Position numbers and translations under genes: made by a program | Shown here: positions 6,583 to 41,199 of the stretch, piece after piece | How the letters are laid out: the number at the start of each line of letters is the position of its first letter | Numbering within the stretch: the first letter of the stretch is position 1 | Assembly (NCBI RefSeq): GCF_005849285.1 | Contig: NZ_CP040517.1 | Span: forward strand, 2,424,501-2,488,500 | Direction: 5' to 3' | From: Luteithermobacter gelatinilyticus | GTDB taxonomy: Bacteria > Pseudomonadota > Alphaproteobacteria > Sphingomonadales > Emcibacteraceae | Length of the DNA stretch: 64,000 nt | The notes under the pieces: model-generated | Told to the model about the DNA's origin: nothing | The model's input: the letters and a program-made list of their open reading frames with translations, nothing else | The model's database searches: none

Positions 6583-7098
6583 ATGGCAATATTACCGATA
6601 CTCACTGTTCCGGACCCACTTTTGAAGACCGTTTCCAAACCGGTGGAACGGGTGGATGACGATCTGCGCCGACTGATGGATGACATGCTGGAAACCATGT
6701 ATGACGCGCCGGGTATTGGTCTTGCCGCCATTCAAGTGGGCCACCCCCTGCGGGTGTTAGTGATCGACCTGGCCGGTGAGGACGAAGAGCCCCGCCCGAT
6801 GTATTTTGTTAATCCGGAAATCTACTGGACGTCGGAAGAAATGGCTAATTATACCGAAGGCTGTCTGTCGGTTCCGGAACAATATGCAGAAATCACCCGC
6901 CCGGCCGAATGCAAGGTCAGATATCTGGATTACAATGGTGAGGAACAGGACCTGCATTGTACCGGTCTGCTGGCGACCTGTCTTCAGCATGAAATGGATC
7001 ACCTGAACGGCATTCTGTTTGTGGACCATCTATCCAAACTCAAACGCGACATGATTGTCCGCAAGGTGAAAAAACTCACCCGCGAAGCCGCCCTTTAA
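6583..7098 (+). CDS. def: Peptide deformylase
   Basis: Removes the formyl group from the N-terminal methionine of new proteins. All three metal-site motifs are present: [17 protein letters not shown] (metal Cys) and QHEMDHLNG (two His ligands and the catalytic Glu). Length (171 aa) is normal. I take the ATG at 6583, giving [14 protein letters not shown] as in the family; a TTG three codons upstream is also possible. It is followed 19 bp later by fmt, the enzyme that adds the formyl group to initiator tRNA, so the two form one operon with truA. Confidence 0.95.
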
Positions 7099-7117
7099 AC
7101 CACCCGGGGGAAATCCG

Positions 7118-8050: not shown

Positions 8051-8805
8051 GCGAAACCTTTCGCTATAAGCTCACTCTGGAATATGATGGCAGCAGCCTG
8101 GTAGGCTGGCAATATCAGACCAATGGCCCGTCCGTTCAGGGACTTCTGGAAGACGCCACCCGAAAATTCTGCCCCGCCTACAACCCGGCGGAAAGCCGGT
8201 ATGTGGCGGCAGGACGCACCGACGCCGGCGTGCATGCCCTTGCCATGGTCGCCCATGTGGACCTGCCGCAGGAAGTCGAAGCCCGCCGGCTGTGCGAGGC
8301 GCTGAACCATTTCCTTAACCGCGGCCCGGTGGCCGTGCTTGAGGCTGAACCGGTGTCACAGGAATTTCACGCCCGCTTCTCCGCCAAAAGGCGCGCATAC
8401 CGTTATCATATCATCAACCGTCGTGCGCCACTCACCCTGATGCGGCACAAAGCCTGGCACGTCAAACATCCGTTGGATACCGACGCCATGCATGAGGCCG
8501 CCCAGCAGCTCGTCGGACGTCACGACTTCACCACTTTCCGCAGCGTCCAGTGTCAGTCCCGCTCCCCTGTCAAAACGCTGGACCGGCTCGACGTCCGGCG
8601 CGAGGGGGAAAATATCTATGTGGAAACCTCGGCCCGCTCCTTTTTGCATCATCAGGTCCGCAGTATGGTCGGCTGCCTGTATTATGTGGGGCTCGGCAAA
8701 TGGAGCAAGCAGGACCTGAAAGAGGCACTTGAGGCGGCGGACCGCACCCGGCTGGCCTATAACGCCCCGCCCGATGGACTGTATTTCACCGGTGTGGACT
8801 ATTGA
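8047..8805 (+). CDS. truA: tRNA pseudouridine(38-40) synthase TruA
   Basis: Makes pseudouridine at tRNA positions 38-40. The 252-aa product shows the catalytic motif [20 protein letters not shown], with the active Asp in RTDAGVHA, and later [11 protein letters not shown] and [11 protein letters not shown] as in the family. It is the third gene of def-fmt-truA and starts within the fmt stop. The last codons and the TGA (8803-8805) run into a palindromic repeat (8801-8830). Confidence 0.96.
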
Positions 8806-9479: not shown

Positions 9480-10637
9480 CTAACCCGTTTCAAAAAAACG
9501 TTCTAAAATGGCGGCATAGATATCGGTTAGCTGTTCAATATCCTCCACCCTCACCCGTTCATCAATCTTGTGCATGGTCTGACTAACCAGGCCGAATTCG
9601 GATACCGGACAATAATCCTTGATGAATCGCGCATCGGAGGTGCCACCGGTGGTGCTGAGTTCGGGTTCCCGCCCCGTAACCTCCTTTACAGCCTGGGTAA
9701 TCAGATCACTTAACACCCCGGGCGGCGTGAGAAAGGCATCACCGGACGCCTTCATCTCCAGCTCATATTCACCGCCCACGTCATCGCACACACTGCGGAT
9801 CCAGTCCTTCAAACCGTCGATGGTCTGTTCATTGTTAAAGCGGATGTTAAAGCGGGCTGTGGCCTCGGCTGGAATCACATTGCTGGCCTCGTTCCCCACA
9901 TCTATGCTAACCACTTCCAGGTTGCTGGGCTGAAAATGAGCATTGCCCTGATCCAGTTCCCGGCTGACCAGACGGTCCAGAATTCTGATCAGACGCGGAA
10001 TCGGGTTATCGGCCAGATGCGGATAAGCCACATGCCCCTGGGTACCCTTGACCACCAGACGGGCATTCAGACTGCCGCGACGGCCGATTTTGGCCATTTC
10101 CCCCAGTGTCGAGGGGTTGGTGGGTTCCCCCACCAGACAATAATCCAGCTTTTCCCCCCGTTCTTCCAGCCATTTCAACATCTTGACTGTACCGTTGATG
10201 GCCGGGCCTTCCTCATCTCCGGTGATCAGGAAACTGATGGATCCTTTAAAACCTTGCGGCCGCCGGGCCAGAAAGCGGGAGGTGGCGGCGACAAAGGCCG
10301 CAATGGCCCCCTTCATATCCGCGGCCCCGCGCCCCATCAACCAGCCGTCCTTGATATGGGCTTCAAACGGTTCAACACTCCAGGCGTCTCGCGCCCCCAC
10401 CGGCACCACATCCGTGTGCCCGGCAAAACAGAAATTGGGGCCGTCCTGTCCCAAACGCGCATACAGATTGTCCACATCCGGCGTGCCGTCGTCGGAAAAC
10501 CGGAGGCGATGACAGACAAAACCCAGCCCCTTCAGGGCCGTTTCCAGCACATCAAGGGCGCCGGCATCCTCAGGTGTGACACTGGGACAACGGATCAGTG
10601 CCTGGGTGAATTCCACGGGATTGATAATGGTGACCAA
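9480..10637 (-). CDS. dapE: Succinyl-diaminopimelate desuccinylase
   Basis: Zinc-dependent M20-family enzyme that hydrolyses N-succinyl-LL-diaminopimelate in lysine and cell-wall synthesis. The 385-aa product has the metal motifs [25 protein letters not shown] (bridging Asp) and [10 protein letters not shown] (catalytic Glu), then [10 protein letters not shown] and a late His in [11 protein letters not shown]. The start appears to be TTG at 10637, preceded by GGATTAGGG; no ATG fits. It begins 3 bp after the dapD stop, so the two consecutive pathway steps are co-transcribed. Confidence 0.95.
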
Positions 10638-10640
10638 ACC

Positions 10641-11498
10641 CTAATCCCTCAGCAAATCATTAATGGAGGTTTTGGCCCGGGTTTTTTCATCCACCCGTTT
10701 GACAATAACCGCCGCATACAGATTGGGCCCTGGCGTGCCGTCCGGCAACGGTTTGCCCGGTAGCGCCCCCGGCACCACCACACTATAGGCCGGCACGCGG
10801 CCATAAAAAATCTCGCCCGTCTCCCGATCAATGATTTTCGTGGAAGCCCCGATATAGACCCCCATGCTCAACACGGCGCCCTCTTCCACGATCACCCCCT
10901 CGGCCACTTCGGACCGGGCCCCGATAAAGCAGTTATCCTCAATGATCACGGGTTCCGCCTGCAACGGTTCCAGAACGCCGCCAATGCCCACGCCCCCCGA
11001 CAAATGCACATTTTTGCCGATCTGGGCGCAGGATCCTACGGTGGCCCAGGTATCGACCATGGTGCCTTCGCCCACATAGGCCCCAAGATTGACAAAGGAC
11101 GGCATCAGCACCGCCCCCGGGGCAATATAGGCCGAATGACGCACCACTGCAGTCGGCACGGCCCGAAAACCGGCCTGATCAAATTCCGCCTGGCCCCAGC
11201 CTTCGAATTTTGACGGCACCTTGTCATACCACGGCGCGGTCTCACCAGGACCGCCGGGAATGATTCGCATGGGATTCAGGCGAAACGACAACAACACCGC
11301 CTTTTTCAGCCATTGATGCACGACCCATTGACTTTTTCCGTCCGCGCCGGGTTCTCTGGACGCCACGCGGACTTTGCCGCTGTCCAGAAGGTTCAGGGTT
11401 TCCTGTACCGCTTCGCGGATCTCCCCTTGAGTATCGGGACCAATTTCCGTACGATTCTCCCACGCCTGCTCAATGACGTTTTCCAGTGAGGTAGACAT
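10641..11498 (-). CDS. dapD: 2,3,4,5-tetrahydropyridine-2,6-dicarboxylate N-succinyltransferase
   Basis: Succinylates tetrahydrodipicolinate, the step before DapC/DapE. The 285-aa protein has an N-terminal helical domain and a left-handed beta-helix of hexapeptide repeats from about residue 120 to 235, including [20 protein letters not shown] and [17 protein letters not shown], as in all DapD. The ATG at 11498 has AAAGGATAAAAACA upstream. Confidence 0.96.
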
Positions 11499-11600
11499 TG
11501 TTTTTATCCTTTATGCTAACGGGCTCTCTAAATCTGTGGCACTCAAAATACAATTGCGGACTTTCTTAACGGCCTGACAATAGCGATCAGGGGCCGGCTG

Positions 11601-12341
11601 TCAATAAGCCCCTTGCCTGCGCCGGGCGTTTTTGCCGGCGGCGGGCTCTTCTGCCTCTGGCACCGTTTCACCTGAAGAACGGTCCAGAAGGGACTGCAAC
11701 CATCCGGTCAGATCTTCTGCGGTATGGTCGATATGTTTTTCTTCCATACCGTCCCGGGACCAGGACAGTGCTGTGGGCACCCAGACCGTTTTCATGCCCA
11801 GATGATGGGCGGGAACAAGATTCCGGGCAATATCCTCAATCATGACGGCTCGCTCCGGGGTAATGCCAAACAGACGGATCATTTTCTGATAACTTTCAGG
11901 GGCCGGCTTGGACCGATAATCCGCCTGATGAATATCGAAAACCCCGGAAAAGGCCCGGCTTAGCCCCAGACGGTCAAGGACTTTTTCCGCATAACCGACA
12001 TCCGCATTGGTATAGATCACCTTGGTGCCCGGCAAACGGCTCAAAACCTCTTTCAACGGCACATTTTCCGTCAAAACCGAAAAATCAATATCATGGACAT
12101 AATCCAGAAATTCCCGCGGAGGAATGTCATGTTCGCTCATCAGGCCACGCAGGGTGGTGCCATAGGTACGAAAATAGGCTTTCTGACGTTGACGGGCCTG
12201 ATCATAGGGCAGGTTCAGCCGTTCGGCGATGAACTCCCCCATCCGCCGGTCCACCTGGGTAAACAGGTTACAGTCCGCTGGGTAAAGCGTGTTATCCAGG
12301 TCAAAAACCCAATGATCAAGCTGTGCGGGATCAAAAGTCAT
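11601..12341 (-). CDS. HAD-family pyrimidine 5'-nucleotidase-like hydrolase
   Basis: A 246-aa HAD phosphatase. Motif I is VFDLDNTLYPADCNLFTQVD, with both catalytic Asp; motif II is KVIYTNADVGYA; motif III/IV covers YRSKPAPESYQKMI and AVMIEDIARNLVPAHHLGM. This arrangement matches the pyrimidine 5'-nucleotidase (YjjG/SDT1-like) branch that sits beside dapD or argB in many alphaproteobacteria. The C-terminal tail after residue 220 is acidic then basic and probably disordered. The true substrate is not evident. It lies 102 bp before dapD on the same strand. Confidence 0.85.
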   Translation of the reverse strand: MTFDPAQLDHWVFDLDNTLYPADCNLFTQVDRRMGEFIAERLNLPYDQARQRQKAYFRTYGTTLRGLMSEHDIPPREFLDYVHDIDFSVLTENVPLKEVLSRLPGTKVIYTNADVGYAEKVLDRLGLSRAFSGVFDIHQADYRSKPAPESYQKMIRLFGITPERAVMIEDIARNLVPAHHLGMKTVWVPTALSWSRDGMEEKHIDHTAEDLTGWLQSLLDRSSGETVPEAEEPAAGKNARRRQGAY

Positions 12342-27033: not shown

Positions 27034-27717
27034 TCAGGACCTCTTACGAACGATCTGGTATCCGGAACGGAACAGATATTTGACCGGCGCCGACAGCACA
27101 TGCACCAGTCGGGTAAAGGGGAACAACAAGAAAATCGTCAGCCCCAGCACAATATGCAGCTTGAAGATCAGTGAGGTTCCGGCCACGAAATCCGCCGCCC
27201 CACCCCGGAAGGTGACAATATACTGTGCCCAGTTGGCCAGCGCGATCATGGAACTGCCGTCCGGATGACTGGCAGAGGCGGGAATGGTGGCCAGCCCCAG
27301 AATGAGCTGCACATACAGAACCAGAAGGATCATGATGTCCGCAGGCCGACTGGTTGCCCGGATGCGGGGGTCCGTCAGCCGCCGGATAATCAAGATCGTC
27401 AGACCAATAAAACAAATCACGCCGAAAATGCCGCCGGCCACCATCGCCAACATCTGCTTGGCCGCCGCCGACATCACCAGATGATAGACGGGTTCCGGCG
27501 TCAACAGCCCGATCAGATGGCCGAAAAACAGCAAAATAATCCCGATATGGAACAGATTACTGCCAATCCGCATGCCGCGTGACCGCAGCAGCTGACTGGA
27601 CCCGGCCCGCCAGCTATAGGGATCCTGATCATAGCGCAGGATCGTGCCCAATATCATAACGACAATCGCAAGATAGGGGTAAATCCCGAAAAAAAACTCA
27701 TTCAGATATGCGCTCAT
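27034..27717 (-). CDS. narI: Respiratory nitrate reductase gamma subunit (cytochrome b)
   Basis: The membrane-anchor subunit that takes electrons from quinol through two b hemes. It has five transmembrane helices in 227 aa. Heme-ligand His residues are visible in SNLFHIGIILLFFGHLIGLL (helix 2) and in FKLHIVLGLTIFLLFPFTRL plus the following VHVLSAP (helix 5), and the C-terminal contact region is conserved. AGGAGGCGAGC precedes the ATG. It is the fourth nar structural gene. Confidence 0.96.
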   Translation of the reverse strand: MSAYLNEFFFGIYPYLAIVVMILGTILRYDQDPYSWRAGSSQLLRSRGMRIGSNLFHIGIILLFFGHLIGLLTPEPVYHLVMSAAAKQMLAMVAGGIFGVICFIGLTILIIRRLTDPRIRATSRPADIMILLVLYVQLILGLATIPASASHPDGSSMIALANWAQYIVTFRGGAADFVAGTSLIFKLHIVLGLTIFLLFPFTRLVHVLSAPVKYLFRSGYQIVRKRS

Positions 27718-27726
27718 GCTCGCCTC

Positions 27727-28425
27727 CTATGAATGATGAGGGCTGGAAGCCCCGCTCCTCCCGGCGCGGTGCCGGGTAACCTGCGGGCAAAGATTGCAGT
27801 CCGCCGTGTCCGTGCCATCGAAGGCGGGAGCTTCTTCCCATTCCCTGTCAAGCGCCTCAAGACTCGTATCCTCGCGGGCGGCATCGTCCATCGCCTGCTG
27901 GACGATCTTCTTGTCCACCTTGACGCTGCTTAACGCTTCCAGCGCCCGGAAGACATGCCGGTAGGAACTCCCTTTCACTTTCATCTTGGCACCGATGGTG
28001 GCGATGATATGCACCGTGTCCCCCAACAGCTCCTGCGCCTCGGCGAAAGGCGACACAGAAAGGAATTCCAGAAACAGCGGCAGATAATCCGGCAGTTCGT
28101 TGGCGGCGATTCTGAAACCCTGCCGGGCGTAATATTCCATAAGATCAACCATGGCCGGACCGCGGTCCCGGCTTTCGCCGTGAACATGTTCAAACAGATA
28201 CAGGGAATGAGACCGTCCCCTGTCAAACAGGGACACGTACTCTTCCTGGATGGAGAGGATATCGTGACGGGCCAGATCATCCATGAACACAAACAGCGGT
28301 TTGCGAATTTTTTCGGGGATCAGCCCCTCATCAACAAGAATGGTTTTCATCTCGGCCATATGCTGCTGCAGTTCCTCATGGGGATATGTCAACAACAGCC
28401 CGAGGACTTTAAACGTACGCATCAT
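27727..28425 (-). CDS. narJ: Nitrate reductase molybdenum cofactor assembly chaperone
   Basis: A 232-aa TorD/NarJ-family chaperone that holds NarG during Moco insertion. Typical features are LGLLLTYPHEEL near the N-terminus, YVSLFDRGRSHSLYLFEHVH (near 65-80) and YLPLFLEFLS. The C-terminal tail is longer and more charged than in E. coli NarJ. The start ATG overlaps the narH stop, so the two are translationally coupled. Confidence 0.95.
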   Translation of the reverse strand: MMRTFKVLGLLLTYPHEELQQHMAEMKTILVDEGLIPEKIRKPLFVFMDDLARHDILSIQEEYVSLFDRGRSHSLYLFEHVHGESRDRGPAMVDLMEYYARQGFRIAANELPDYLPLFLEFLSVSPFAEAQELLGDTVHIIATIGAKMKVKGSSYRHVFRALEALSSVKVDKKIVQQAMDDAAREDTSLEALDREWEEAPAFDGTDTADCNLCPQVTRHRAGRSGASSPHHS

Positions 28426-29975
28426 GATTTCCTTATGTTGCCGTTCATGGTGTTTTTGTGGGTCGGACCGCCAAACAGTCCCCCGGTGCGCGCCGCCCCC
28501 CCGGCACAGCCATTGCCAAAGCTGAAACCGCAGGCGGAACGGGTTTCAAAGGCAATGTCATTATCAAACGGGGTCTGACCGGCATATTCCCGGTGGTTGG
28601 TGGGGATCACAAAACGGTCTTCATACTCCGCCAGCGCCATGATCCTGTACATTTCCTCTACGGTTTTGGCCTCCAGCTCAACCCGTTCAAGCGCCCTTAT
28701 ATCCCCATTTCCGTTGATGGTTTTGGCCCGCATATAGCTGCGCATGGCCAGCATGCGCTCCAGCGCGTGCACCACCGGTTGTTCCCGGCCACCCGTCAGC
28801 ATATTGGCAAGATATTTCACTGGAATGCGCAGATTTTTCACATCCGGCATGATGTCATCCCCAGCGATCTTGCCCTCTGTATGGGCGCTTTGAATGGGGG
28901 AAAGCGGCGGAATATACCAGACCATCGGCAGGGTGCGGTATTCGGGATGCAACGGGAAAGCCACCTTCCAGTCAATCGCCATTTTATAGACCGGCGATTT
29001 TTTTGCCGCCTCAAGCCAGCTGTCGGGCACGCCATCCTTGCGGGCCTGTTCAATCACCTTGGGATCATGCGGGTCAAGGAAGATGTCGCACTGGGCTTGA
29101 TACAGGTCCCCTTCATCCGCCGTCGCGGCCGCTTCCTCGATACGGTCCGCGTCATACAACAACACGCCAAGATAGCGGATGCGTCCGACGCAGGTTTCCG
29201 AACATATAGTCGGATCACCGTTTTCAATACGCGGGAAACAGAAAGTGCATTTTTCCGATTTGCCAGACTGCCAGTTGAAATAGATCTTTTTGTAAGGGCA
29301 GCCAGACACACACATGCGCCAGCCCCGGCATTTGTCCTGGTCGATGAGCACAATGCCGTCTTCCTCGCGTTTATAGATGGCACCAGAAGGACAGGCCGCC
29401 ACGCAGGTCGGGTTCAGGCAATGCTCGCACAGCCGCGGCAGATACATCAGGAAGGTGTTTTCAAACTGACCATAAATATCCTTCTCAACATCTTTGAAGT
29501 TATAGTCCCGGGAACGTTTTTCGAACTCGCCGCCGAGAATCTCCTCCCAGTTGGGCCCCCATTCCGGTTTTTCCATTTTCTCTCCGGTAATGGCGGAATG
29601 GGCCCGCGCCGTCGGCGGTGTCTTCACGTCGCCCGCCGTTTGCAGATGGGCGTAATCAAACGTGAAGGGTTCATAATAGTCGTCAATTTCCGGCAGGTCC
29701 GGATTGGCAAAGATTTTGGCCAGGAGCCGGAACTTTCCGCCCATTTTCGGCTGGATCTTGCCATTGGACTTGCGCACCCAGCCGCCGTTCCAGCGGTCCT
29801 GGTTTTCCCATTCCCGCGGATACCCCACACCGGGTTTGCTTTCCACATTGTTGAACCAGGCATATTCAACGCCTTCACGGCTCGTCCAGACATTCTTGCA
29901 GGTCACCGAACAGGTGTGGCACCCGATACATTTGTCCAGATTGAGAACCATCCCGATTTGTGCACGTATCTTCAT
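28422..29975 (-). CDS. narH: Respiratory nitrate reductase beta subunit (iron-sulfur)
   Basis: A 517-aa electron-transfer subunit with four Fe-S clusters. The Cys groups are CIGCHTCSVTCKNVW, CEHCLNPTCVAACPSG, CRGWRMCVSGCPYKK (Trp in place of Cys, which gives the 3Fe-4S cluster as in E. coli NarH) and CTFCFPRIENGDPTICSETC. It lies between narG and narJ and is complete. Confidence 0.97.
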   Translation of the reverse strand: MKIRAQIGMVLNLDKCIGCHTCSVTCKNVWTSREGVEYAWFNNVESKPGVGYPREWENQDRWNGGWVRKSNGKIQPKMGGKFRLLAKIFANPDLPEIDDYYEPFTFDYAHLQTAGDVKTPPTARAHSAITGEKMEKPEWGPNWEEILGGEFEKRSRDYNFKDVEKDIYGQFENTFLMYLPRLCEHCLNPTCVAACPSGAIYKREEDGIVLIDQDKCRGWRMCVSGCPYKKIYFNWQSGKSEKCTFCFPRIENGDPTICSETCVGRIRYLGVLLYDADRIEEAAATADEGDLYQAQCDIFLDPHDPKVIEQARKDGVPDSWLEAAKKSPVYKMAIDWKVAFPLHPEYRTLPMVWYIPPLSPIQSAHTEGKIAGDDIMPDVKNLRIPVKYLANMLTGGREQPVVHALERMLAMRSYMRAKTINGNGDIRALERVELEAKTVEEMYRIMALAEYEDRFVIPTNHREYAGQTPFDNDIAFETRSACGFSFGNGCAGGAARTGGLFGGPTHKNTMNGNIRKS

Positions 29976-29986
29976 TTCTGCTACTC

Positions 29987-32900
29987 CTATTCCGCGACCT
30001 GAACAGATGTGTCACCATCCGCCGGGTCTTCGCCCCACTCCACATTTTCGGCCTTGCGCACGACCACAAACTCGTCCCGGTTGGATCCAACCGTACCGTA
30101 GTAGTTAAATCCGTAAGACAGTTGCGCATACCCGCCGATCATATGGGTGGGTTTGAGCACCGCCCGGGTGACGGAATTATGAATGCCGCCGCGGGCGCCA
30201 GTGATTTTGGACAAGGGGGTGTTAACGATTTTCTCCTGGGCGTGATACATCATCGTCATGCCTTCGGGCACCCGCTGGGACACCACGGCCCGGGCCATAA
30301 TCACGCCGTTGCTGTTATACAGCTCCAGCCAGTCGTTATCTTTCACGTCCATCTTGCGGGCGTCGGTTTCTGAAATCCACACCACCGGCCCCCCCCGGTT
30401 CAGCGTCAGCATCAACAGGTTGTCGCTGTAGGTGGAGTGAATGCCCCATTTCTGGTGCGGCGTGATCCAGTTGAGCACCACTTGTTTTTTGCCGTCACCA
30501 TATTTGTCGATCACCGGTGCGATGGTTTTGGTGTTCACCGGCGGCTTGTAGACGCAAAAGCCCTCGCCGAAATCGCGCATCCATTCATGGTCCTGATAGA
30601 ATTGCTGGCGACCGGTTAGCGTGCGCCACGGGATCAGTTCATGCACATTGGTATATCCCGCATTATAACTGACATGTTCATCCTCAAGACCGGACCAGGT
30701 GGGTGAAGAAATGATCTTCCTCGGCTGCGCCTTGATGTCATGGAAGCGGATCTTCTCTTCCTGTTTCGGTTTGGCAAGATGGGTATGTTTACGACCCGTC
30801 ACCTCGCCCAGTGCCGCCCATGATTTTACAGCCACATTGCCATTGGTTTCCGGCGCGAGGGAAAGCACCACTTCCGTGGCATCCACATCCGTAACAATTT
30901 TCGGCAGCCCCTCATTAACCCCAGGGTCATTGTGAGTGCCGTTCAGGCGCGCCAGCAATTCCACCTCCTCATCGGTGTTCCAGCTGATGCCCTTGCCGCC
31001 ATTGCCCAGTTTCCCCATCAGCGGACCAAGCGCGGTAAAACGCTTATAGGTATTGGGATAATCCCGGGTGACTTCCACAAGGGCGGGCATGGTTTTGCCC
31101 GGAATGGGTTCGCATTCGCCTTTTTTCCAGTCGGCCACGCCCAGGGGTTGCGCCAGTTCACCCGGCGTATCATGCAAAATGGGCAGGGTGACGACATCCT
31201 TTTCCACGCCCAGATGTCCCTCGCAAACTTCCGAGAATTTTTCTGCAATCCCGCGGTAAATGTCCCAGTCGCTGCGGCTTTCCCAAGCCGGATCCACCGC
31301 GCGGGTCAGCGGGTGAATAAAGGGATGCATGTCGGAAGTGTTGAGGTCGTTCTTTTCATACCAGGTGGCCGACGGCAACACGATGTCCGAATAGACGCAG
31401 GTGGTAGACATCCGGAAATCCAGCGTCACCACAAGATCCAGCTTGCCCTCCGGCGCGTCCTCATGCCAGACCACTTCGCTGGGTTTCTGTCCCCCGCTTT
31501 CCCCCAGATCCTTGCCCAAGAGGCCATGCTGGGTGCCCAGCAGGTGTTTGAGCATATATTCATGCCCCTTGCCCGAGGATCCCAACAGGTTCGACCGCCA
31601 GATAAACATGTTGCGAGGAAAGTTTTTGGGATTGTCCGGATCTTCGCAGGCAAATCCCAGCTCCCCGCTTTTCAGCTTGTCCACCACATAATCCGCCACC
31701 GGCTGGCCGGCTTCTTCTGCGGCCCGGGCCACCTTCAGGGGGTTATCATTGAGCTGCGGCGCGGACGGCAGCCAGCCCATGCGCTCTGAACGCACATTAC
31801 AATCCACAAGCGTGGTGTTCTGCCATTTGTCCCGGTCCGCAAGCGGCGAAAGAATTTCATCCACTTCCAGTTTTTCATACCGCCACTGATCCGAATGGGC
31901 GTAGAAAAAGCTGGTGGAATTCATCTGCCGCGGCGGACGCGCCCAATCCAGCCCGAACGCCAGCGGCAGCCATCCGGTTTGCGGACGCAATTTCTCCTGG
32001 CCCACATAATGGGCCCAACCGCCCCCCGATTTGCCAACACAGCCGCACATGATCAGGAGATTCATAATCCCACGGTAATTCATATCCATATGGTACCAGT
32101 GATTGATCGCCGCCCCCAGAATCACCATGGACCGCCCGCGGGTCTGGTCCGCATTCATGGCGAACTCCCGCGCCACCTGGATCACCTTGTGGCGATCCAC
32201 GCCGGTGATTTTTTCCTGCCAGGCCGGCGTATAGGGCACATCATCGTCAAAGGAAGAAGCCACATTGTCGCCGCCCAACCCCCGGTCCACGCCGTAATTG
32301 GCGACCAGCAGGTCAAACACCGTGGCGACCTTCACCGGGCCATCCTTGGTCTCAACGACTTTCAGCGGCACGTGCCGTTCCAGAACGCTGTCATGATCCG
32401 TGTGTTTGAAGATGGGCTGGTCATTGACGATATTGCCGAAATAGGGGAACGCCACCGGCGCGACCTCATCACGGTCCTCCAGAAGAGAAACTTTCGGCCA
32501 CACATCACTGCCATCAGCCACATTCTTCAGTTCCAGATTCCATTTTTTGCTTTTGTCCCAGCGTGAACCGATGGTGCCGTTCGGCACACAGACTTTGCCG
32601 GACGTCCCGTCAAGAATGGTGGCTTTCCATTCGGCATGCTGCGCCTCGCCCAGACTATTTTCAAAATCAGACGCCCGCAGTAACCTGTCGGGCACCAGTT
32701 TACCGTCTTTTTCTTCAAGCCGCACCAGGAACGGCATATCGGTATACATGCGGCAATAATCGTCAAAATATTCGGATTTTCCGGCAACATGGAACTCTTT
32801 GAGGATCACATGTCCCATGGCCATGGCCATGGCGCTGTCGGTTCCCTGGCGCGGATTGAGCCAAATGTCCGTCAATTTGGCCACTTCCGAATAGTCCGGG

Positions 32901-33745
32901 GTCACGGAGACGGTCTTGGTGCCTTTATACCGAACCTCGGTGAAGAAATGGGCGTCGGGCGTGCGGGTTTGCGGCACGTTGGAGCCCCAGGCAATGATAT
33001 AGCCGGAATTATACCAGTCGGCGCTTTCGGGCACGTCCGTCTGCTCGCCCCAGGTTTGCGGCGAACTGGGCGGCAGGTCGCAATACCAGTCATAAAAAGA
33101 CATGCACACCCCGCCGATCAGCGACAGATAACGGCTTCCGGCGGCATAGGAGATCATCGACATGGCCGGAATCGGCGAAAAGCCGATGATACGGTCAGGG
33201 CCAAATTCTTTTGCGGTATAGACATTTGCCGCGGCAATAATCTCATTCACCTCGTCCCAGCTGGAGCGCACGAACCCGCCCAGACCTCGGACCTGTTTAT
33301 AAGCCCGCGCCTTATCCGGATCGCAGACAATGCTCTGCCAAGCCTCCACAGGATCCGGATGTTCGGCCTTGGCCGCGCGCCACAGTTCAATTAGCCGACG
33401 GCGGACCAGGGGAAATTTAAGCCGTGCCGCGCTATAGAGATACCAGCTGTAACTGGCGCCACGGGCACAGCCGCGGGGTTCGTGATTTGGCAGGTCCGGC
33501 CGGGTCTTGGGATAATCCGTCTGCTGGGTTTCCCAGGTCACCAGGCCGTTTTTGACATAAATTTTCCAGGAACAGGACCCCGTGCAGTTCACCCCATGGG
33601 TGGAACGCACCACCTTGTCATGGGCCCAACGGCCACGATAGGCCTTTTCCCAGTCCCGGCGTTCATCGGTTGTGATGCCATGCCCGTTCGCAAAGGTTTC
33701 GGGCGTTTTGGTGAAATAGGAAAGTCTGTCGATAAAATTGCTCAT
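29987..33745 (-). CDS. narG: Respiratory nitrate reductase alpha subunit (Mo-bisMGD)
   Basis: The 1252-aa catalytic subunit that reduces nitrate to nitrite at the cytoplasmic face. The His/Cys ligands of the FS0 cluster are in THGVNCTGSCSWKIYVKNGL and RGCARGASYSWYLYS. The molybdenum ligand Asp is in SFYDWYCDLPPSSP. Later segments RSNLLGSSGKGHEYMLKHLL and GFNYYGTVGSNRDEFVVVRK are standard for NarG. Length is normal. It is followed by narH after 11 bp. Confidence 0.98.
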   Translation of the reverse strand: MSNFIDRLSYFTKTPETFANGHGITTDERRDWEKAYRGRWAHDKVVRSTHGVNCTGSCSWKIYVKNGLVTWETQQTDYPKTRPDLPNHEPRGCARGASYSWYLYSAARLKFPLVRRRLIELWRAAKAEHPDPVEAWQSIVCDPDKARAYKQVRGLGGFVRSSWDEVNEIIAAANVYTAKEFGPDRIIGFSPIPAMSMISYAAGSRYLSLIGGVCMSFYDWYCDLPPSSPQTWGEQTDVPESADWYNSGYIIAWGSNVPQTRTPDAHFFTEVRYKGTKTVSVTPDYSEVAKLTDIWLNPRQGTDSAMAMAMGHVILKEFHVAGKSEYFDDYCRMYTDMPFLVRLEEKDGKLVPDRLLRASDFENSLGEAQHAEWKATILDGTSGKVCVPNGTIGSRWDKSKKWNLELKNVADGSDVWPKVSLLEDRDEVAPVAFPYFGNIVNDQPIFKHTDHDSVLERHVPLKVVETKDGPVKVATVFDLLVANYGVDRGLGGDNVASSFDDDVPYTPAWQEKITGVDRHKVIQVAREFAMNADQTRGRSMVILGAAINHWYHMDMNYRGIMNLLIMCGCVGKSGGGWAHYVGQEKLRPQTGWLPLAFGLDWARPPRQMNSTSFFYAHSDQWRYEKLEVDEILSPLADRDKWQNTTLVDCNVRSERMGWLPSAPQLNDNPLKVARAAEEAGQPVADYVVDKLKSGELGFACEDPDNPKNFPRNMFIWRSNLLGSSGKGHEYMLKHLLGTQHGLLGKDLGESGGQKPSEVVWHEDAPEGKLDLVVTLDFRMSTTCVYSDIVLPSATWYEKNDLNTSDMHPFIHPLTRAVDPAWESRSDWDIYRGIAEKFSEVCEGHLGVEKDVVTLPILHDTPGELAQPLGVADWKKGECEPIPGKTMPALVEVTRDYPNTYKRFTALGPLMGKLGNGGKGISWNTDEEVELLARLNGTHNDPGVNEGLPKIVTDVDATEVVLSLAPETNGNVAVKSWAALGEVTGRKHTHLAKPKQEEKIRFHDIKAQPRKIISSPTWSGLEDEHVSYNAGYTNVHELIPWRTLTGRQQFYQDHEWMRDFGEGFCVYKPPVNTKTIAPVIDKYGDGKKQVVLNWITPHQKWGIHSTYSDNLLMLTLNRGGPVVWISETDARKMDVKDNDWLELYNSNGVIMARAVVSQRVPEGMTMMYHAQEKIVNTPLSKITGARGGIHNSVTRAVLKPTHMIGGYAQLSYGFNYYGTVGSNRDEFVVVRKAENVEWGEDPADGDTSVQVAE

Positions 33746-33769
33746 GAAGTATCTCCGATACCCGCTGCT

Positions 33770-35413
33770 TCAAGGATTTTTCACATAGGCGTTGCGACGC
33801 AGATAGAACCACCAGTTGATCAGGATGCAGACCGTGTAGAAAATGGCGAAACCATACAGTGCATATTCCGGTGTGGTGGCCTTGATCTGTTCCCCGAAAA
33901 CCTGCGGAATGATGAAAGCGCCGTAAGCCGCCACCGCTGAAGTCCAGCCCAAAACGGGACCCGCCTGTTCCTTGTTGAACACCATGGCAATGGTGCGGAA
34001 GGTGGACCCATTGCCGATGCCGGTGGCCGCAAACAGAATGATAAACAGGATCAGGAAGGGATAAAAATAATCCTCAGGGGTGGCGGAGGCATAGGCCGCC
34101 TGCATGAAATAGGCCACACCCAGTGCCGACAAGACCATTACCACGCTGATGATCTGGGTCACTTTCGCCCCACCCATCCTGTCCGCCAAGGCGCCCCCCA
34201 GCGGGCGGATCAAAGCGCCAATGAACGGCCCCATCCAGGCATAGGTTAGGGCGCTGGGACCATTGGGATTGACTGTGCTGTGGGTCATGACTCCATCAAC
34301 CAGAATATGCTGATAGCCGAACACCACCTTGATCGCGAGCGGCAACGCTGCGGAAAAACCGATGAAAGAACCAAAGGTCATGGTGTAGATAATGGTCATG
34401 GCCCAGGTGTGCTTGTTGCTGAAAATCTGGAACTGACGTTTCAGATTGGCCTGGATCTTGCCCGGGATCAGCCGCAACAACAGCAGGGTGAGCACGATCA
34501 CCAACGGCAACACGATCCACTTGTTGAGTTCTGTCCCCGCCCCGCCGGTCGCCGCCGGCAGCATCAGCCACAGTCCAAACGCCGCCGTCAGCAAACCAAT
34601 GGCCAACATGCCCAGAATTTTAGCGAAGGCCGGCAACGCCGCCTTGGCATCCGGAGAGACATGTTCGTCACGAATGTTATTCATGCCAAACCAGATGGCA
34701 AACGACAGCGGAACAAGGAACAGAAGCCACACCCAGCCGGCATTAAAGATATAGGTTTCAGTCCCTGCCGGGATTTTGCCGATCAGCGTGCCGGAGGTGT
34801 TCTGAAGCGTCATGCTTTCGCCGCCGAACAGTCCAAACGTCATCACCAGCGGCACCAGGATCTGCATTGTCGTGACCCCGAAATTCCCGAGGCCCGCATT
34901 CATGCCCAGCGCATATCCCTGAATTTTCTTGGGATAAAAGAAGCTGATATTGGACATGGAGGAGGCAAAATTACCCCCGCCCAGGCCCGACAGCAGAGCC
35001 ATCAATTGAAACTGCCACAGAGGGGTTTCAGGATTCTGAAGCAGGTACCCAGTCCCAGCCGCCGGAATAATCAGCAACGCCGTCGTGAGGAAAATGGTAT
35101 AACGTCCGCCCGCAATGCGGATTAGAAAAGAACTGGGAATCCTCAACGTGGCCCCGGAAAGCCCGGCAATCGCCGCCAGTGTGAAAAGCTGGCTTTGCGA
35201 AAACGGAAAGCCGAGATTAAGCATCTGCACCGTGATGATGCCCCAGTAGAGCCACACCGCAAACCCGCATAGCAACGCCGGAATGGAAATCCAGAGATTG
35301 CGGGTGGCAATGCGCCGGCCTTCCGACTGCCATTGTTGTTCATTATCCGGGTTCCAACCGATAATATCCCGGCCTGTTTGCTGAAAACCTTGTACTGTTT
35401 CCTCGGATGACAT
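33770..35413 (-). CDS. narK2: Nitrate/nitrite transporter NarK2-type (MFS)
   Basis: A 547-aa, 12-helix MFS transporter. The nitrate signature motifs are seen as GLGGGNFASSMSNISFFYPK and AGLGNFGVTTMQ in the first half and a second copy around TGIGNGSTFRTIAMVFNKEQ. The long soluble N-terminus with WNPDNEQQWQSEGRRIATRN is typical of the type-II NarK that exchanges nitrate for nitrite. AAAGGAGAGAAACA precedes the ATG. It lies between narK1 and narG. Confidence 0.93.
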   Translation of the reverse strand: MSSEETVQGFQQTGRDIIGWNPDNEQQWQSEGRRIATRNLWISIPALLCGFAVWLYWGIITVQMLNLGFPFSQSQLFTLAAIAGLSGATLRIPSSFLIRIAGGRYTIFLTTALLIIPAAGTGYLLQNPETPLWQFQLMALLSGLGGGNFASSMSNISFFYPKKIQGYALGMNAGLGNFGVTTMQILVPLVMTFGLFGGESMTLQNTSGTLIGKIPAGTETYIFNAGWVWLLFLVPLSFAIWFGMNNIRDEHVSPDAKAALPAFAKILGMLAIGLLTAAFGLWLMLPAATGGAGTELNKWIVLPLVIVLTLLLLRLIPGKIQANLKRQFQIFSNKHTWAMTIIYTMTFGSFIGFSAALPLAIKVVFGYQHILVDGVMTHSTVNPNGPSALTYAWMGPFIGALIRPLGGALADRMGGAKVTQIISVVMVLSALGVAYFMQAAYASATPEDYFYPFLILFIILFAATGIGNGSTFRTIAMVFNKEQAGPVLGWTSAVAAYGAFIIPQVFGEQIKATTPEYALYGFAIFYTVCILINWWFYLRRNAYVKNP

Positions 35414-35453
35414 TGTTTCTCTCCTTTAAAACCGTGGGGAAGCGGAAGGGGGG

Positions 35454-36785
35454 TTACCCCTTCATCCCTTCCAGTTCCGGCAGGTTGTGAGGCCCGCGCA
35501 GTTCGGGATTGCGCTGTTTTTCAAGGCGCCGGATCGCAAAGTGCATCCAGGTCAGCGCTATGGCGATAATGACAGTCAACAGCATGAAACAACTGGTCCA
35601 GACCCCGATCAGGTCATTCATTGCCCCAAAAATAATCGGCAGGAAAAAGCCGCCCAGGCCGCCAACCAGTCCAACCATGCCGCCCACGGACCCCACATGG
35701 TTCGGGTAATAAACGGGGATATGTTTGTAGACAGCGGCCTTGCCCAGCGACATGAAGAAGCCGAGAATCACGGTCAGCGCAACAAATACCTCAAGCGGAA
35801 TTGTGATGTTGAATTCAATGGGGCCGTTAATGCCAGCCACCCGGTAATCCGTGGAAGGATAGGACATGATGAATGTACAGATGACGCTGGCGATAAACGT
35901 CCAATACATGACAGTCCGGGCCCCGTATTTATCAGACATCCAGCCGCCCAGCGCCCGGAACACTGATCCTGGCAGGGCATACATGGCGGCCAGCATACCG
36001 GCCGTTTTCAGTTCCAGCCCATAGGCCCCCACATAATAACGCGGCAACCACAAAGCCAGCGCCACATAGGCGCCGAAAACAAAGAAATAATACAGTGAAA
36101 ACCGCCAGACCTGCTGCTTCTTGAGCGGTTCGATCTGTTCCAGGAAAGAGGGATGTTTCATCCCTGAAGTCTTGTGGGTGGCATGAACCGGATCGTCTTT
36201 GGAAAACAGGTAAAACAGAATCGCTGTCACCGCCAGCACGATGGCATAAACCTGGGCCACACCCTGCCAGGCGCCACCCATGGCCGCCAGCAGGAACGGC
36301 GCGCCGAAATTGGTGACCGCCGCCCCCACATTCCCCATGCCGAAAATACCCAGCGCCGTCCCCTGTTGTTCCTTGGGGTACCAGCGCGAAACATAGGCCA
36401 CGCCAACGGCAAAGCTGCCCCCCGCCAGGCCCACGCCCAGCGCCGCGACAAGAAACATTTCGTAACTGCTGACCAGAGTCAGCAAATAGACTGCCACCGC
36501 CGTGGTCAGCATCTGCAGGGTATAGACAAGCCGTCCGCCATACTGGTCCGTCCAGATCCCCAGAAACAGCCGACTCAGGGAGCCAGTCAGAACCGGTGTG
36601 GCAACCAGCAGGCCGAATTGAGTATCATTCAGCCCGAGTTCGGCCTTGATTCTGATGCCGATAATGGAAAAAATCGTCCAGACGGCAAAACATACGGTAA
36701 ATGCCAGTGTGCTGGTAGACAGCGCACGATACTTATCCCCCGGCCTTACCGGGACATCGCCTTTATTTGCCAACGTATCGGTCAC
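35454..36785 (-). CDS. narK1: Nitrate/proton symporter NarK1-type (MFS)
   Basis: A 443-aa, 12-helix transporter with GLAGGSFAVGVAYVSRWYPK and GIFGMGNVGAAVTNFGAP, the type-I nitrate motifs. I set the start at GTG 36785, which has AGGAGGAAGTT directly upstream. The longer open frame that begins at TTG 36866 is not coding because that TTG is part of the FNR-type box. It is the first gene of the nar operon. A CACAAT -10 (36832-36827) lies at the right distance from the box at 36853-36866 for class II activation. Confidence 0.92.
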   Translation of the reverse strand: MTDTLANKGDVPVRPGDKYRALSTSTLAFTVCFAVWTIFSIIGIRIKAELGLNDTQFGLLVATPVLTGSLSRLFLGIWTDQYGGRLVYTLQMLTTAVAVYLLTLVSSYEMFLVAALGVGLAGGSFAVGVAYVSRWYPKEQQGTALGIFGMGNVGAAVTNFGAPFLLAAMGGAWQGVAQVYAIVLAVTAILFYLFSKDDPVHATHKTSGMKHPSFLEQIEPLKKQQVWRFSLYYFFVFGAYVALALWLPRYYVGAYGLELKTAGMLAAMYALPGSVFRALGGWMSDKYGARTVMYWTFIASVICTFIMSYPSTDYRVAGINGPIEFNITIPLEVFVALTVILGFFMSLGKAAVYKHIPVYYPNHVGSVGGMVGLVGGLGGFFLPIIFGAMNDLIGVWTSCFMLLTVIIAIALTWMHFAIRRLEKQRNPELRGPHNLPELEGMKG

Positions 36786-36852
36786 AACTTCCTCCTGATA
36801 CTGTCGCGTTTCAAAATTGAGAACATTGTGACCGCAGGACCGGACCCTGTGC

Positions 36853-36866
36853 TTGACTTTGGTCAA
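36853..36866. promoter_or_regulatory. FNR/DNR-type box in the narK1 / NIT-CRP intergenic region
   Basis: TTGACTTTGGTCAA is a perfect TTGAC-N4-GTCAA dyad. Its centre lies about 27-32 bp upstream of the minus-strand CACAAT hexamer, which places it near -41.5 of the nar operon. It could also serve the divergent regulator gene. The HTH of that regulator has the E-x-x-S-R signature that reads TTGA half-sites. Confidence 0.8.
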
Positions 36867-36914
36867 GTAACGTCGTTTTTTTGGAAAGGCGTCCCGTTCC
36901 CCACTCCGGGAGAT

Positions 36915-38699
36915 ATGGACAAGACAGCAAAAAAAGTATATTCCTCAGCCTTACGTAAAACACAAACGCCCAGACAAATTCCAAAAATAAACAACCAAGA
37001 GCCGGCAGATCAGGGGATAAAGGCGGAAGGCGTGACTAAACCGACTGAGAATACGTTGCTGGTGCAGGACCTGTTGCACAGACTTGGGGATGTTGTGCAT
37101 CAGATTCAGCGCGAGCGCGGCTGTGCCGGACTTTTCCTGGACAGTATGGGAAAAATCTTCACCGAAGAGCTGAATGCACAAAGCAAAACCGTGGATCAGG
37201 CCATTGCCAATCTCCATGACTTTTGCACCCGCCGTGACGTCAAGAACGCCTTGCCGGCGAATTTTGAAGGGCGCCTGAACTTTCTGTTTGTCAAATATGA
37301 TGGCCTGACCGAGTTGCGGGACAAAATGCGCCTGCTGGCCATGCGCTACACCCAGGCGCTTAATACCTATACGTTCAATTTTATCATTCCGACCATCGAC
37401 GCCATGATTGAACTGGCGCAGCGCGAACCGTCCCACAATTCCGCCCTTGTCTCGGCCTATGCCAATTTTTTGCAATGGAAGGAAAGGGTCGGCATGGAAC
37501 GGGCCTTCGGCGCACGCGGTTTTTATACCTTTGCCTTCCGCAATCAAGAATTTTGTGACCGGTTTGTGGCCCTGATCGCAGAACAGAAAACCTATTTCGA
37601 CACATTCAAGGCGCTGGCGTCGCCCTCCCAGATCGCCCTATTGCAGGAAACAGTGGACACAAACGCCCTGGAGGCGCTGAATACGATCAATCGGCTCCTG
37701 GAACAGGAAGCCCCGCCGGGTGAAATTGAGCAATATTCCGGCGAAGCATGGTTTGACATCCTGACCCGTATTATTGACGGCCTCCGATGCGTCGAGAAAG
37801 AACTGGTCCGGGGACTGGTCGGTGTTGACAAGAGAGAAATCAACGCCTCGGCACAAAGCAGGCCCGGGCGATTCACAGATCTGCCCCCGCCGGATGCCGG
37901 CAGCCGGGAATGCCGCAAGCAACCGGGGGTTAAAACCAAACTCGATCAGTATCGCCCGTTTCTTCGCTCCCTGCCCATTTTTGCCGCACTGGAGGAAAAA
38001 GATCTGGAAGAACTGCTGGCCTTTGCGCAGATCAGGGAATATGAAAAGGACAAGCTCCTGATTCTCAGGGACGAACCCGTTTCGCGCCTGTATATTGTCC
38101 TGGACGGCTGGGTCAAGGTCTACAACGGTCTTGAAACCGGGGAAGAGGCCATTCTGCAAATGCTGGGCAGTGGGGAAACCCTGCTGGAATCTGCGGTTTT
38201 TCTTAATGTGCCCACGCCGGTCAATGCCCAGGTGGTCGAACGGGCGCTGCTGCTGTCCCTTCCCGCGCCGGTGATCCGGCAATATATCCAGTCCAGCCCA
38301 CAACTGGCCATGAACATGCTGAATACGGTCTCTCTGCGTTCCCAGCGGCTGGTGCAGCAGATCGAACTGTCCCGCCTCAAAACCGCCCAGGAACGTGTAG
38401 GCTGGTTTCTGCTTCGTCTGGCACTGAATCAGAAACCGAAGGATGGCAGGGTGGTTCTGCCTTATGAAAAATCCATCATTGCCTCTTATCTGGATATGCG
38501 GCCGGAAACCTTTTCCAGATCCCTGAAAAAGTTTAAGGCAGAAGGCTTTGATGTGAACACCGATAGTGTCAGAATCCCTCATGACCGGGCCCTGTGCGAC
38601 TATTGTGACGTGGAACTGGCCAGCCAGTGTGATAGCGCCGGAACCGAGGATTGCCCCCGCCCCGAATTGGCTGATGCGGTCAATTCCACCGACACTTGA
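36915..38699 (+). CDS. NIT-domain / CRP-FNR fusion transcription regulator
   Basis: A protein of up to 594 aa. Residues about 50-290 form a NIT (nitrate/nitrite-sensing) domain, recognised by VHQIQRERGCAGLFLDS, LQWKERVGMERAFGARGF and RFVALIAEQKTYFDTFKALA. After a Pro/Arg-rich linker come a cyclic-nucleotide-binding-fold domain (about 345-460) and a Crp-type HTH (about 490-545) whose recognition helix RPETFSRSL has the E-x-x-S-R set that contacts TTGA. A tail with Cys at about 561, 564, 572 and 580 (C-x2-C-x7-C-x7-C) follows. The start is uncertain: ATG 36915 (GGGAG close by) or GTG 37032. The open frame reaching back to 36174 overlaps narK1 and is spurious. It lies divergent from narK1 and upstream of moaA, so it is the obvious nar regulator. 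Confidence 0.88.
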   Translation: MDKTAKKVYSSALRKTQTPRQIPKINNQEPADQGIKAEGVTKPTENTLLVQDLLHRLGDVVHQIQRERGCAGLFLDSMGKIFTEELNAQSKTVDQAIANLHDFCTRRDVKNALPANFEGRLNFLFVKYDGLTELRDKMRLLAMRYTQALNTYTFNFIIPTIDAMIELAQREPSHNSALVSAYANFLQWKERVGMERAFGARGFYTFAFRNQEFCDRFVALIAEQKTYFDTFKALASPSQIALLQETVDTNALEALNTINRLLEQEAPPGEIEQYSGEAWFDILTRIIDGLRCVEKELVRGLVGVDKREINASAQSRPGRFTDLPPPDAGSRECRKQPGVKTKLDQYRPFLRSLPIFAALEEKDLEELLAFAQIREYEKDKLLILRDEPVSRLYIVLDGWVKVYNGLETGEEAILQMLGSGETLLESAVFLNVPTPVNAQVVERALLLSLPAPVIRQYIQSSPQLAMNMLNTVSLRSQRLVQQIELSRLKTAQERVGWFLLRLALNQKPKDGRVVLPYEKSIIASYLDMRPETFSRSLKKFKAEGFDVNTDSVRIPHDRALCDYCDVELASQCDSAGTEDCPRPELADAVNSTDT

Positions 38700-38709
38700 C
38701 GCAGGTCAA
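38696..38709. promoter_or_regulatory. Second FNR/DNR-type box, upstream of the Moco riboswitch and moaA
   Basis: TTGACGCAGGTCAA is again a perfect TTGAC-N4-GTCAA dyad and overlaps the stop codon of the NIT-CRP gene. A TACTAT hexamer at 38743-38748 could be the -10. It probably drives moaA-moeA in step with nar. Confidence 0.75.
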
Positions 38710-38754: not shown

Positions 38755-38880
38755 TTTTAACTCCGAAGCCTCTGCGCCTAAGTCCGCCGCATCGGATAAG
38801 GCGCCTTGGCCGCAGCGCTGATGCTGCCGGGTCAGAAGGGGAAACCGTCTGGCCTCTCGTGTTCAGAAAGGAGACCGCTT
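38755..38880 (+). promoter_or_regulatory. Moco riboswitch (molybdenum cofactor RNA motif) leader of moaA
   Basis: The leader can be aligned by eye with the E. coli moaA leader. Both share GCCTCTGC(G/A)CC near the start, a complementary GG(C/T)GC with CTTTGGCC or CTTGGCC, a GC-rich hairpin ending in GCCTC (here GGTCAGA/TCTGGCC at about 38830-38853), then a GAAAGG block that includes the ribosome-binding site. The RNA binds molybdenum cofactor and typically shuts off its synthesis. The site for moaA translation (AAAGGAGACC) lies inside the motif, so control at translation is likely. Confidence 0.8.
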
Positions 38881-39858
38881 GTGACTCTTAGCGACGGATT
38901 TGGCCGCACCTTCAGATATCTTCGGCTATCAATTACCGAAGCCTGCAACTTTCGCTGCAGCTACTGCCTGCCAGACGGATATAAAAAACGGCCCGGTCCC
39001 GCGCCATTATCCCGCGTCGAATTGCGACGCGCAGCTACGGCATTTTCCGAACTCGGCCTGACAAAAATCCGCCTCACGGGCGGCGAACCAACCCTGCGCA
39101 AGGATTTCGAACAAATTGCTGCTGATATCAGCGCTTTGCAGCAGGTCCGCACCCTGGCCCTCACCACCAATGGCTACCGGCTGGAAAAACGGGCCCATCT
39201 CTGGCGCGCCGCCGGCATCAACGCGCTCAATATCAGCCTGGACAGTCTGGACCGCGAACGTTTCCGTCAGATTACCGGCCATGACCGCCGTGACGAAGTG
39301 CTGCGCGGCATTGACGCCGCCTTTGAAGCGGGGTTTGAAACCATCAAAATTAATGTGGTTTATATGAAGGGGCTGAATGATCATGAAGTTGGGGATTTCA
39401 TTAACCTTACCCGTGAACGCCCCCTGTCTGTCCGGTTTATCGAACTGATGGAAACCGGTGAACACGCGGCCTTTTTCACCCGCCATCATATTCCGGCTGA
39501 CACCATCGCCCGCAAGCTGTATCAGCAGGGCTGGACCCCGAAACTAAAGGCCGCTGATGCCGGTCCCGCCAATAACTTCATCCATCCCGACCATCGGGGC
39601 AGTATCGGCCTGATCGCCCCTTATTCAAAGGATTTCTGCCAAAGCTGCAATCGCCTGCGGTTTTCCAGCTTCGGCAATCTTCATCTGTGTCTGTTTGGTA
39701 ATTTTGGTCTTCCCCTGCGCCGTTATCTCCAGCATGACGAACAGATCGGGGATCTGAAACAGCAGTTGATCAAAGCCGTCCGGCGCAAAACCGCCGGGCA
39801 TCAGCTGGCACAACACCAGACCGGCATGACCGGCAATCTTTCCGCCATCGGCGGTTGA
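38881..39858 (+). CDS. moaA: GTP 3',8-cyclase MoaA
   Basis: A radical-SAM enzyme that starts molybdopterin synthesis from GTP. The N-terminal cluster motif is EACNFRCSYCLP (C-x3-C-x2-C). The C-terminal second cluster is in CQSCNRLRFSSFGNLHLCLF, and the protein ends with the conserved Gly-Gly. It has 325 aa from GTG 38881, preceded by AAAGGAGACC; the frame extending upstream lies in the riboswitch and is not coding. Its place next to nar resembles moaA1 of Pseudomonas. Other Moco genes must be elsewhere. Confidence 0.95.
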   Translation: MTLSDGFGRTFRYLRLSITEACNFRCSYCLPDGYKKRPGPAPLSRVELRRAATAFSELGLTKIRLTGGEPTLRKDFEQIAADISALQQVRTLALTTNGYRLEKRAHLWRAAGINALNISLDSLDRERFRQITGHDRRDEVLRGIDAAFEAGFETIKINVVYMKGLNDHEVGDFINLTRERPLSVRFIELMETGEHAAFFTRHHIPADTIARKLYQQGWTPKLKAADAGPANNFIHPDHRGSIGLIAPYSKDFCQSCNRLRFSSFGNLHLCLFGNFGLPLRRYLQHDEQIGDLKQQLIKAVRRKTAGHQLAQHQTGMTGNLSAIGG

Positions 39859-39930: not shown

Positions 39931-41199
39931 ATGTCCAATACCCCGTCCTCCCAAGGCATGCCGATGACCATGCAGTCCTATGACGACAGCCTGGCACGCA
40001 TTTGTGCCGAAGCAGCCCCCCGCCCCCCCGTCTCCCGACCGCTTTTTGAAAGTGTGGGCCTGGTGCTGGCGGAAGACCTCACTGCGCCCCTTTCGGTCCC
40101 GTCCTTTGACAACAGCGCCATGGACGGATTTGCCTTTTCCGCTGCGGCGGTCGCGACAGCCACGCCGGACAGGCCAATAAGGCTCACCGTAGCAGGCGCC
40201 AGCATCGCCGGCGCAGAACCCCCGCCGCCCTTGCAGAAAGGAACCGCCGTCAAAATCATGACCGGCGCCCCTCTGCCGAAGGGGGCCGATACCATCCTGC
40301 CGGTCGAAGCGGCAGGATGGGATCACGAAACGCTGATCTTCGACCGCCCCTATCCCGCCGGCCGGCATGTGCGGCGGGAGGGAGAAGATATCATGGCGGG
40401 CGCTCCCCTGCTTGCCGCCGGAACTCGGATCGCACCGCAACATCTGCCGTTGCTGTGTGCAGCGGGACAGGCCCGTCTGCCGGTTTCTCCCGCTCCGAGA
40501 GTGGTTTGGATTTCAACGGGACAGGAAATTTCCGACGATTTCAACGCGCCGCTGACCGCCGGGCAGATCTATAACGCCACCCGGCTTTATGGACAGGTCA
40601 TGGCCTCTGACATAGGCATGAAGATAATCGGCAGCTTCACCGTCAGGGACACGCCGGAAGATTTCGCCGATGCCCTGCATCAGGCGCTGGAGAGCGACCC
40701 GGACCTTATTCTTTCCACCGGCGGGGTTTCGGCAGGACAGTATGATTTTGTCCGTCCGGTCCTGGAACGCATCGGCGCGGATATTATCCTGCACAAGGCA
40801 CGGATCAAACCGGCCAAGCCGGTGCTGTTCGCCCGCCTGCAACAGGGCAGTTTTTTCTTCGGCCTGCCTGGCAATCCGATCTCCACGGCCCTGGCGCTCA
40901 GAATTTTTGTGGCTCCATTCATACGCCGGTTTACCGGACGCGCACCGGAAACGATGCGGAAGGCCCGGCTGGCCGGCGCGATTGAAACCGCGGACGACAA
41001 AACCGTGTTCCTGATGGGCACGGTGGCACCGGACGCCACAGGCGCTCTGATCGCCACCGCCCAAACCGGCCAACATTCCTTCCGAACCGCATCTTTCGCT
41101 GCCGGCAATGCCTGGATCATTGTGCCCGAAGGCACCGGAAGACTGGAAGCCGGGGCCGAAGTCATCTGGCTACCGTTTCATCCTGAAGCGGCCCTGTAG
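39931..41199 (+). CDS. moeA: Molybdopterin molybdotransferase MoeA
   Basis: Inserts molybdate into adenylylated molybdopterin. The 422-aa product has SVPSFDNSAMDGFAF near residue 55, the MPT-binding VKIMTGAPLPKGADTILPVE and the MoCF-domain motif LILSTGGVSAGQYDFV, then FFGLPGNPISTALALRIFV. ACAGGAGATTACAGCC precedes the ATG. It follows moaA by 72 bp, probably under the same riboswitch and promoter. Confidence 0.95.
   Translation: MSNTPSSQGMPMTMQSYDDSLARICAEAAPRPPVSRPLFESVGLVLAEDLTAPLSVPSFDNSAMDGFAFSAAAVATATPDRPIRLTVAGASIAGAEPPPPLQKGTAVKIMTGAPLPKGADTILPVEAAGWDHETLIFDRPYPAGRHVRREGEDIMAGAPLLAAGTRIAPQHLPLLCAAGQARLPVSPAPRVVWISTGQEISDDFNAPLTAGQIYNATRLYGQVMASDIGMKIIGSFTVRDTPEDFADALHQALESDPDLILSTGGVSAGQYDFVRPVLERIGADIILHKARIKPAKPVLFARLQQGSFFFGLPGNPISTALALRIFVAPFIRRFTGRAPETMRKARLAGAIETADDKTVFLMGTVAPDATGALIATAQTGQHSFRTASFAAGNAWIIVPEGTGRLEAGAEVIWLPFHPEAAL

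Follow-up and report, generated by a model that had tools for sequence, protein, structure and literature searches.

The 64-kb stretch of DNA analysed here, referred to as the window, carries a group of nar genes on its minus strand and a regulator gene running away from them on the plus strand. The minus-strand genes are narK1, which encodes a nitrate/nitrite transporter (35454-36785, an ORF with a conserved start, probably the GTG at 36785 with an AGGAGG), narK2 (33770-35413), narG (29987-33745), narH (28422-29975), narJ (27727-28425) and narI (27034-27717). The assignments of narK2, narG, narH and narJ were made from the ORF list and locus comparison, and that of narI from its position and sequence. 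The regulator gene (37032-38699) is divergent from this narK1-narK2-narGHJI block and is followed on the same strand by moaA, involved in molybdenum cofactor synthesis (38806-39858, exact start uncertain), and by moeA (39931-41199, ORF list and locus comparison). The initial annotation had placed the regulator beside narK-narGHJI with no narXL in sight, and both statements held: a genome-wide search for NarX/NarQ-type sensors returned no match above the PilJ cut-off and a single one below it (21.7 of 26.6 bits).

The same annotation had the regulator gene span 36915-38699. This reading frame is indeed open, but its first ATG is probably not the start of the protein. Orthologue starts and the conserved N-terminus align at amino acids 40-50 of the 36915 ORF, and the GTG at 37032, which corresponds to V40, is preceded by a purine-rich stretch. 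On these grounds we preferred GTG 37032 over the earlier alternative, ATG 36915; the regulator would then be a protein of 555 amino acids and the first 39 codons of the ORF would be intergenic.

Domains of the regulator and its C-terminal cysteines

Pfam profile searches on the 36915 ORF identified a NIT domain (PF08376, residues 59-301, 37089-37817) with 134.4 bits against a curated cut-off of 24.9 (E 1.1e-38), followed by a CRP-type β-barrel (cNMP_binding, PF00027, E 3e-15, residues 374-460, 38034-38294) and a helix-turn-helix domain (HTH_Crp_2, PF13545, residues 493-561, 38391-38597), both above their curated cut-offs. The fusion of NIT and CRP/FNR parts in one ORF, with NIT expected over residues 50-290, was thus correctly predicted, and the regulator is the sole NIT-domain protein of the 3.15 Mb genome. 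In phmmer searches the N-terminal part matched the nitrate receptor NasR (4akk, E 1.7e-16) and the remainder CRP/FNR proteins; Pfam gave no match to an ANTAR domain in the regulator, which has a CRP/FNR output in its place. A structure model was computed with AlphaFold using 31 orthologues as input (pLDDT 77.7). It showed an all-helical NasR-like NIT fold (Z 29.0, rmsd 3.7, 265 aligned residues with 4akk_A) and also resembled holo-FNR (Z 19.3). The segment linking NIT to the barrel (37818-37950) aligned poorly, varied in length and fell below a pLDDT of 50 at model residues 267-301, and is probably flexible.

The FNR-type recognition helix PETFSR (38502-38519) carries the E-x-x-S-R pattern announced in the initial annotation, and its residues E531, S534 and R535 were invariant in all 39 aligned proteins. 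An Arg-Ser pair is the mark of the cAMP pocket in CRP, and the barrel of the regulator, as read from its sequence, is devoid of it. The protein has no N-terminal cysteine cluster of the FNR type and reached 30.7 of 228 bits with the FNR model. The best NCBIfam models were those of FtrB, yet with 116 of 211 bits they remained far below cut-off.

The initial annotation had recovered the domains and overlooked four cysteines at the C-terminus, the only conserved cysteines among the 39 aligned proteins. The tail behind the HTH domain reads LCxxCDxxxxxxC-x7-C and contains C561, C564, C572 and C580 (CX2CX7CX7C, 38595-38654). The last three were found in all aligned proteins and C561 in 38, with one ambiguous residue, while the 2-7-7 spacing was kept in 37 of 38 homologues. 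CRP proteins ending in the same tail without a NIT domain occur in other alphaproteobacterial families, several of them beside narK, narG or moeA. We propose that the motif probably binds metal, a [4Fe-4S] cluster that reports O2 or NO being the most likely form. A cluster at this end of the protein is plausible because the C-X2-C-X7-C part of the tail has the same spacing as the N-terminal cysteines of the FnrL-like paralogues encoded in the same genome, and because the [4Fe-4S] cluster of Bacillus Fnr sits at its C-terminus (PMC3520743, PMC8139620). The main alternative is that the cysteines hold a structural zinc or form disulfides and have no sensing role, the regulator responding to nitrate or nitrite alone. 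The invariance of four cysteines would fit a zinc site as well, and we regard this reading as quite plausible even though the shared spacing and the Bacillus precedent speak against it. RedB (PMC9603854) was also considered as a parallel for the tail and judged not relevant. Separately, four CRP proteins (L109, L119, L173, L178) end in a three-cysteine tail of about CX2CX6C, possibly a second class of C-terminal cysteine clusters.

Occurrence of the fusion with nar genes

Relatives of the regulator were collected from named genome contigs, including Kordiimonas marina and several MAGs, and by whole-genome searches. Full-length NIT-CRP proteins were present in 39 of the 248 genomes sampled from the order. 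All 39 carriers possessed narG, compared to 27 of the 209 non-carriers (Fisher 4.9e-28, a value that overstates independence as the genomes are related). In the best-sampled genus (g9), eight genomes had both NIT-CRP and narG and nine had neither, a pattern that points to repeated joint gain or loss. The same architecture was thus found to recur beside narG, as the initial annotation had suggested looking for: 32 of 40 NIT-CRP copies lay within 8 kb of it, and no narG was seen on the contigs of the remaining eight, partly at least through contig ends. Typically, narGHJI-narK2-narK1 runs divergently from the regulator, which is followed by moaA and often moeA. Class and phylum samples added few full-length copies, all from Alphaproteobacteria; none was detected outside this class in a phylum-wide sample of 398 genomes at E 1e-45, a threshold that distant ones may escape. 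A plasmid collection yielded no full-length NIT-CRP, just NIT-only or CRP-only matches.

Several loci departed from the common arrangement. At L041 (G015:C106) two NIT-CRP genes, both with the cysteine tail, stand in tandem (7058-8638 and 10152-11717) next to one nar cluster. At L058 and L059, which encode more distant NIT-CRP proteins, a second CRP gene separates the NIT-CRP gene from narK and there is no perfect TTGAY box upstream. The narG of a MAG (L008, 2955-6677) is broken into three fragments lying in different frames, as is that of G468, reflecting either a frameshift or an assembly error. As for the nar block and regulator of the window (27034-38699), this narG is 87-88% identical to the copies of genus g9, which belongs to another, Kordiimonas-like family (f5), but within its own family (f1) most copies share only about 75-76% identity with it. 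The regulator also groups with family f5 in the tree, and a joint horizontal transfer of the nar block and its regulator is possible.

Boxes, promoter geometry and integrity of the nitrate pocket

Two boxes flank the regulator gene, TTGACTTTGGTCAA between narK1 and the regulator (36853-36866) and TTGACGCAGGTCAA upstream of moaA (38696-38709). Both had been pointed out in the initial annotation, and they proved to be the only perfect TTGAYN4RTCAA sites within the window. Counting perfect TTGAYN4RTCAA sites within 300 bp upstream of the 39 aligned genes, we found the first box in 32 of the 39 regions; a perfect TTGAY box was present in 23 of the 39 homologous downstream regions. We relied on this phylogenetic conservation because counts in the genome itself showed no clear excess (6 perfect TTGACN4GTCAA sites, the reversed control pattern giving 3). 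On the narK side, a hexamer of the form nAnnnT starts 22 bp from the box in 24 of the 32 cases and 21 bp from it in 7, other spacings giving 0-6; in the window this candidate narK1 -10 element is CACAAT (36825-36830, minus strand), 22 bp from the 36853 box. Class II FNR promoters have their site centred at -41.5, with the -10 element at such a distance, and the narK-side spacing is consistent with this geometry. On the regulator's own side, no comparable peak was seen when a class II -10 element was looked for at the 32 boxes.

Box conservation and promoter geometry are read directly from the alignments; that the regulator is the protein bound there, we infer. The initial annotation had taken the match between helix and boxes as a sign of this pairing. 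Helix and boxes are both present, but the boxes lost their value as specific evidence for the regulator: sequence does not single out their binder because two FNR paralogues of the same genome (the FnrL-like L075 and L077), with N-terminal C-X2-C-X7-C motifs, share the E-x-x-S-R helix. The boxes could then be served mainly by an FnrL-type paralogue for oxygen control, the NIT-CRP protein acting elsewhere or only fine-tuning, and in Paracoccus both FnrP and NarR do act on nar (PMC8139620). We nevertheless consider this explanation unlikely, since NIT-CRP carriers always have narG, the two are gained or lost together inside a genus, and the NIT-CRP gene almost always adjoins the box.

Returning to the NIT-CRP protein as the probable nar regulator, we looked at the integrity of its sensor. 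Residues E175 and R176 of NasR, predicted to belong to the nitrate pocket (PMC7496416), align with E195 and R196 of the regulator. R196 is retained in 36 of the 37 NIT-bearing rows of the alignment and E195 varies, with a glutamate in 31; R68, K189, G193 and R196 hardly vary. The pocket was assessed through E175/R176 and not through the NasR positions R49 and R236. That the NIT domain has lost ligand binding and is a mere dimerisation module, as its divergence among orthologues (with identities to the NIT of the window as low as about 28%) might allow, is very improbable, given that QxER, KE and the R196 motif persist in almost every copy linked to nar and are missing from the nar-less one. 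L057, which has neither box nor nar alongside, shows a broken pocket (K189S, G193C, R196F), and NIT has disappeared entirely from its sister L061. Judged on these very few cases, the constraint on the pocket appears linked to the nar setting.

Proposed mode of action and comparison with known systems

We think it likely that the protein is a one-component, nitrate/nitrite-responsive activator of nar, an analogue of NarR in function with a built-in, recognisable nitrate sensor. Domain identity, pocket conservation, synteny, co-occurrence and promoter geometry together argue for nitrate binding and for control of nar. Nitrate, and perhaps lack of oxygen too, would probably turn on the nar genes directly through this regulator. 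In the cytoplasm, the N-terminal helical bundle would bind nitrate or nitrite, and the ligand would either change the NIT dimer or release the CRP/FNR part from NIT, by analogy with NasR, for which relief of autoinhibition has been demonstrated (PMC7496416). These two routes seem the likely ones; since the linker varies and is modelled with low confidence, signalling through a rigid helical relay of the histidine-kinase type is improbable. The FNR-type helix would then bind the TTGAYN4RTCAA boxes and, from a class II position, activate narK1-narK2-narGHJI; moaA is probably a target too. If the C-terminal CX2CX7CX7C motif holds a [4Fe-4S] cluster, it would report O2 or NO. A gate requiring both nitrate and anoxia, in which NIT reads nitrate or nitrite, the tail cluster reads O2 or NO and the helix acts on the narK-narGHJI promoter, is a possibility that we put forward tentatively.

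Among known systems, the closest in role is NarR, the nitrate/nitrite-responsive CRP/FNR factor for nar that is described as replacing NarXL in Alphaproteobacteria (PMC8139620). NarR of Paracoccus shares with the regulator the CRP/FNR fold, the E-x-x-S-R helix and a gene divergent from narK-narGHJI. However, the proteins found in this slot in Paracoccus and relatives are about 230 amino acids long and have neither NIT nor C-terminal cysteines, whereas the regulator has both. In the tree, under a long-branch warning, the NarR-slot proteins of Paracoccus, Thioclava, Tistrella and others did not group with the regulator and formed a separate clade (99/99), each of the two being supported. NasR of Klebsiella senses nitrate in the cytoplasm as a one-component receptor, through a NIT domain of the same fold (Z 29), but it acts through an RNA-binding ANTAR output in nitrate assimilation, while the regulator has a DNA-binding CRP/FNR output that would serve respiration. 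Bacillus Fnr, which controls nar in B. subtilis, is a CRP/FNR factor with a C-terminal cysteine cluster (PMC3520743, PMC8139620); it differs in having three cysteines and an aspartate (C-X2-C-X4-C) in place of CX2CX7CX7C, and no nitrate sensor. In the NreABC system of Staphylococcus, nar is controlled by a nitrate sensor (NreA) together with an O2 sensor that carries a [4Fe-4S] cluster (NreB) (PMC8139620), but the system is a two-component pathway of three proteins and its nitrate sensor is a GAF domain. Finally, Sphingopyxis granuli TFA has a CRP/FNR protein in the same nar-divergent slot, an FtrB-like regulator (PMC4741004) described without a NIT domain, unlike the protein of the window.

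The initial annotation had called the regulator an uncharacterised direct switch from nitrate to DNA. Full-text searches of the open PMC library indeed turned up no account of a NIT-CRP/FNR fusion, but the role itself is already filled by NarR in other Alphaproteobacteria. Where Alphaproteobacteria lack NarXL, it is NarR that accounts for the perception of nitrate in respiration, a protein in which no nitrate-sensing domain is recognisable; in the window, the genomic slot of NarR is occupied by a CRP/FNR factor that carries an explicit NIT domain, and the step from nitrate to promoter therefore becomes testable with one protein and one DNA box. The regulator would represent a ready one-component, nitrate-responsive DNA-binding part and, if its tail binds an Fe-S cluster, would combine the tasks of NarXL and FNR in a single protein in this lineage. 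Elsewhere in the genome, a further TTGAC box precedes an FMN-binding NosR-like gene, with nosZ at a distance of about 4 kb (L183, G000:C1:2514700-2518812), which we count in favour of the proposed reading; the organism may also be capable of N2O reduction.
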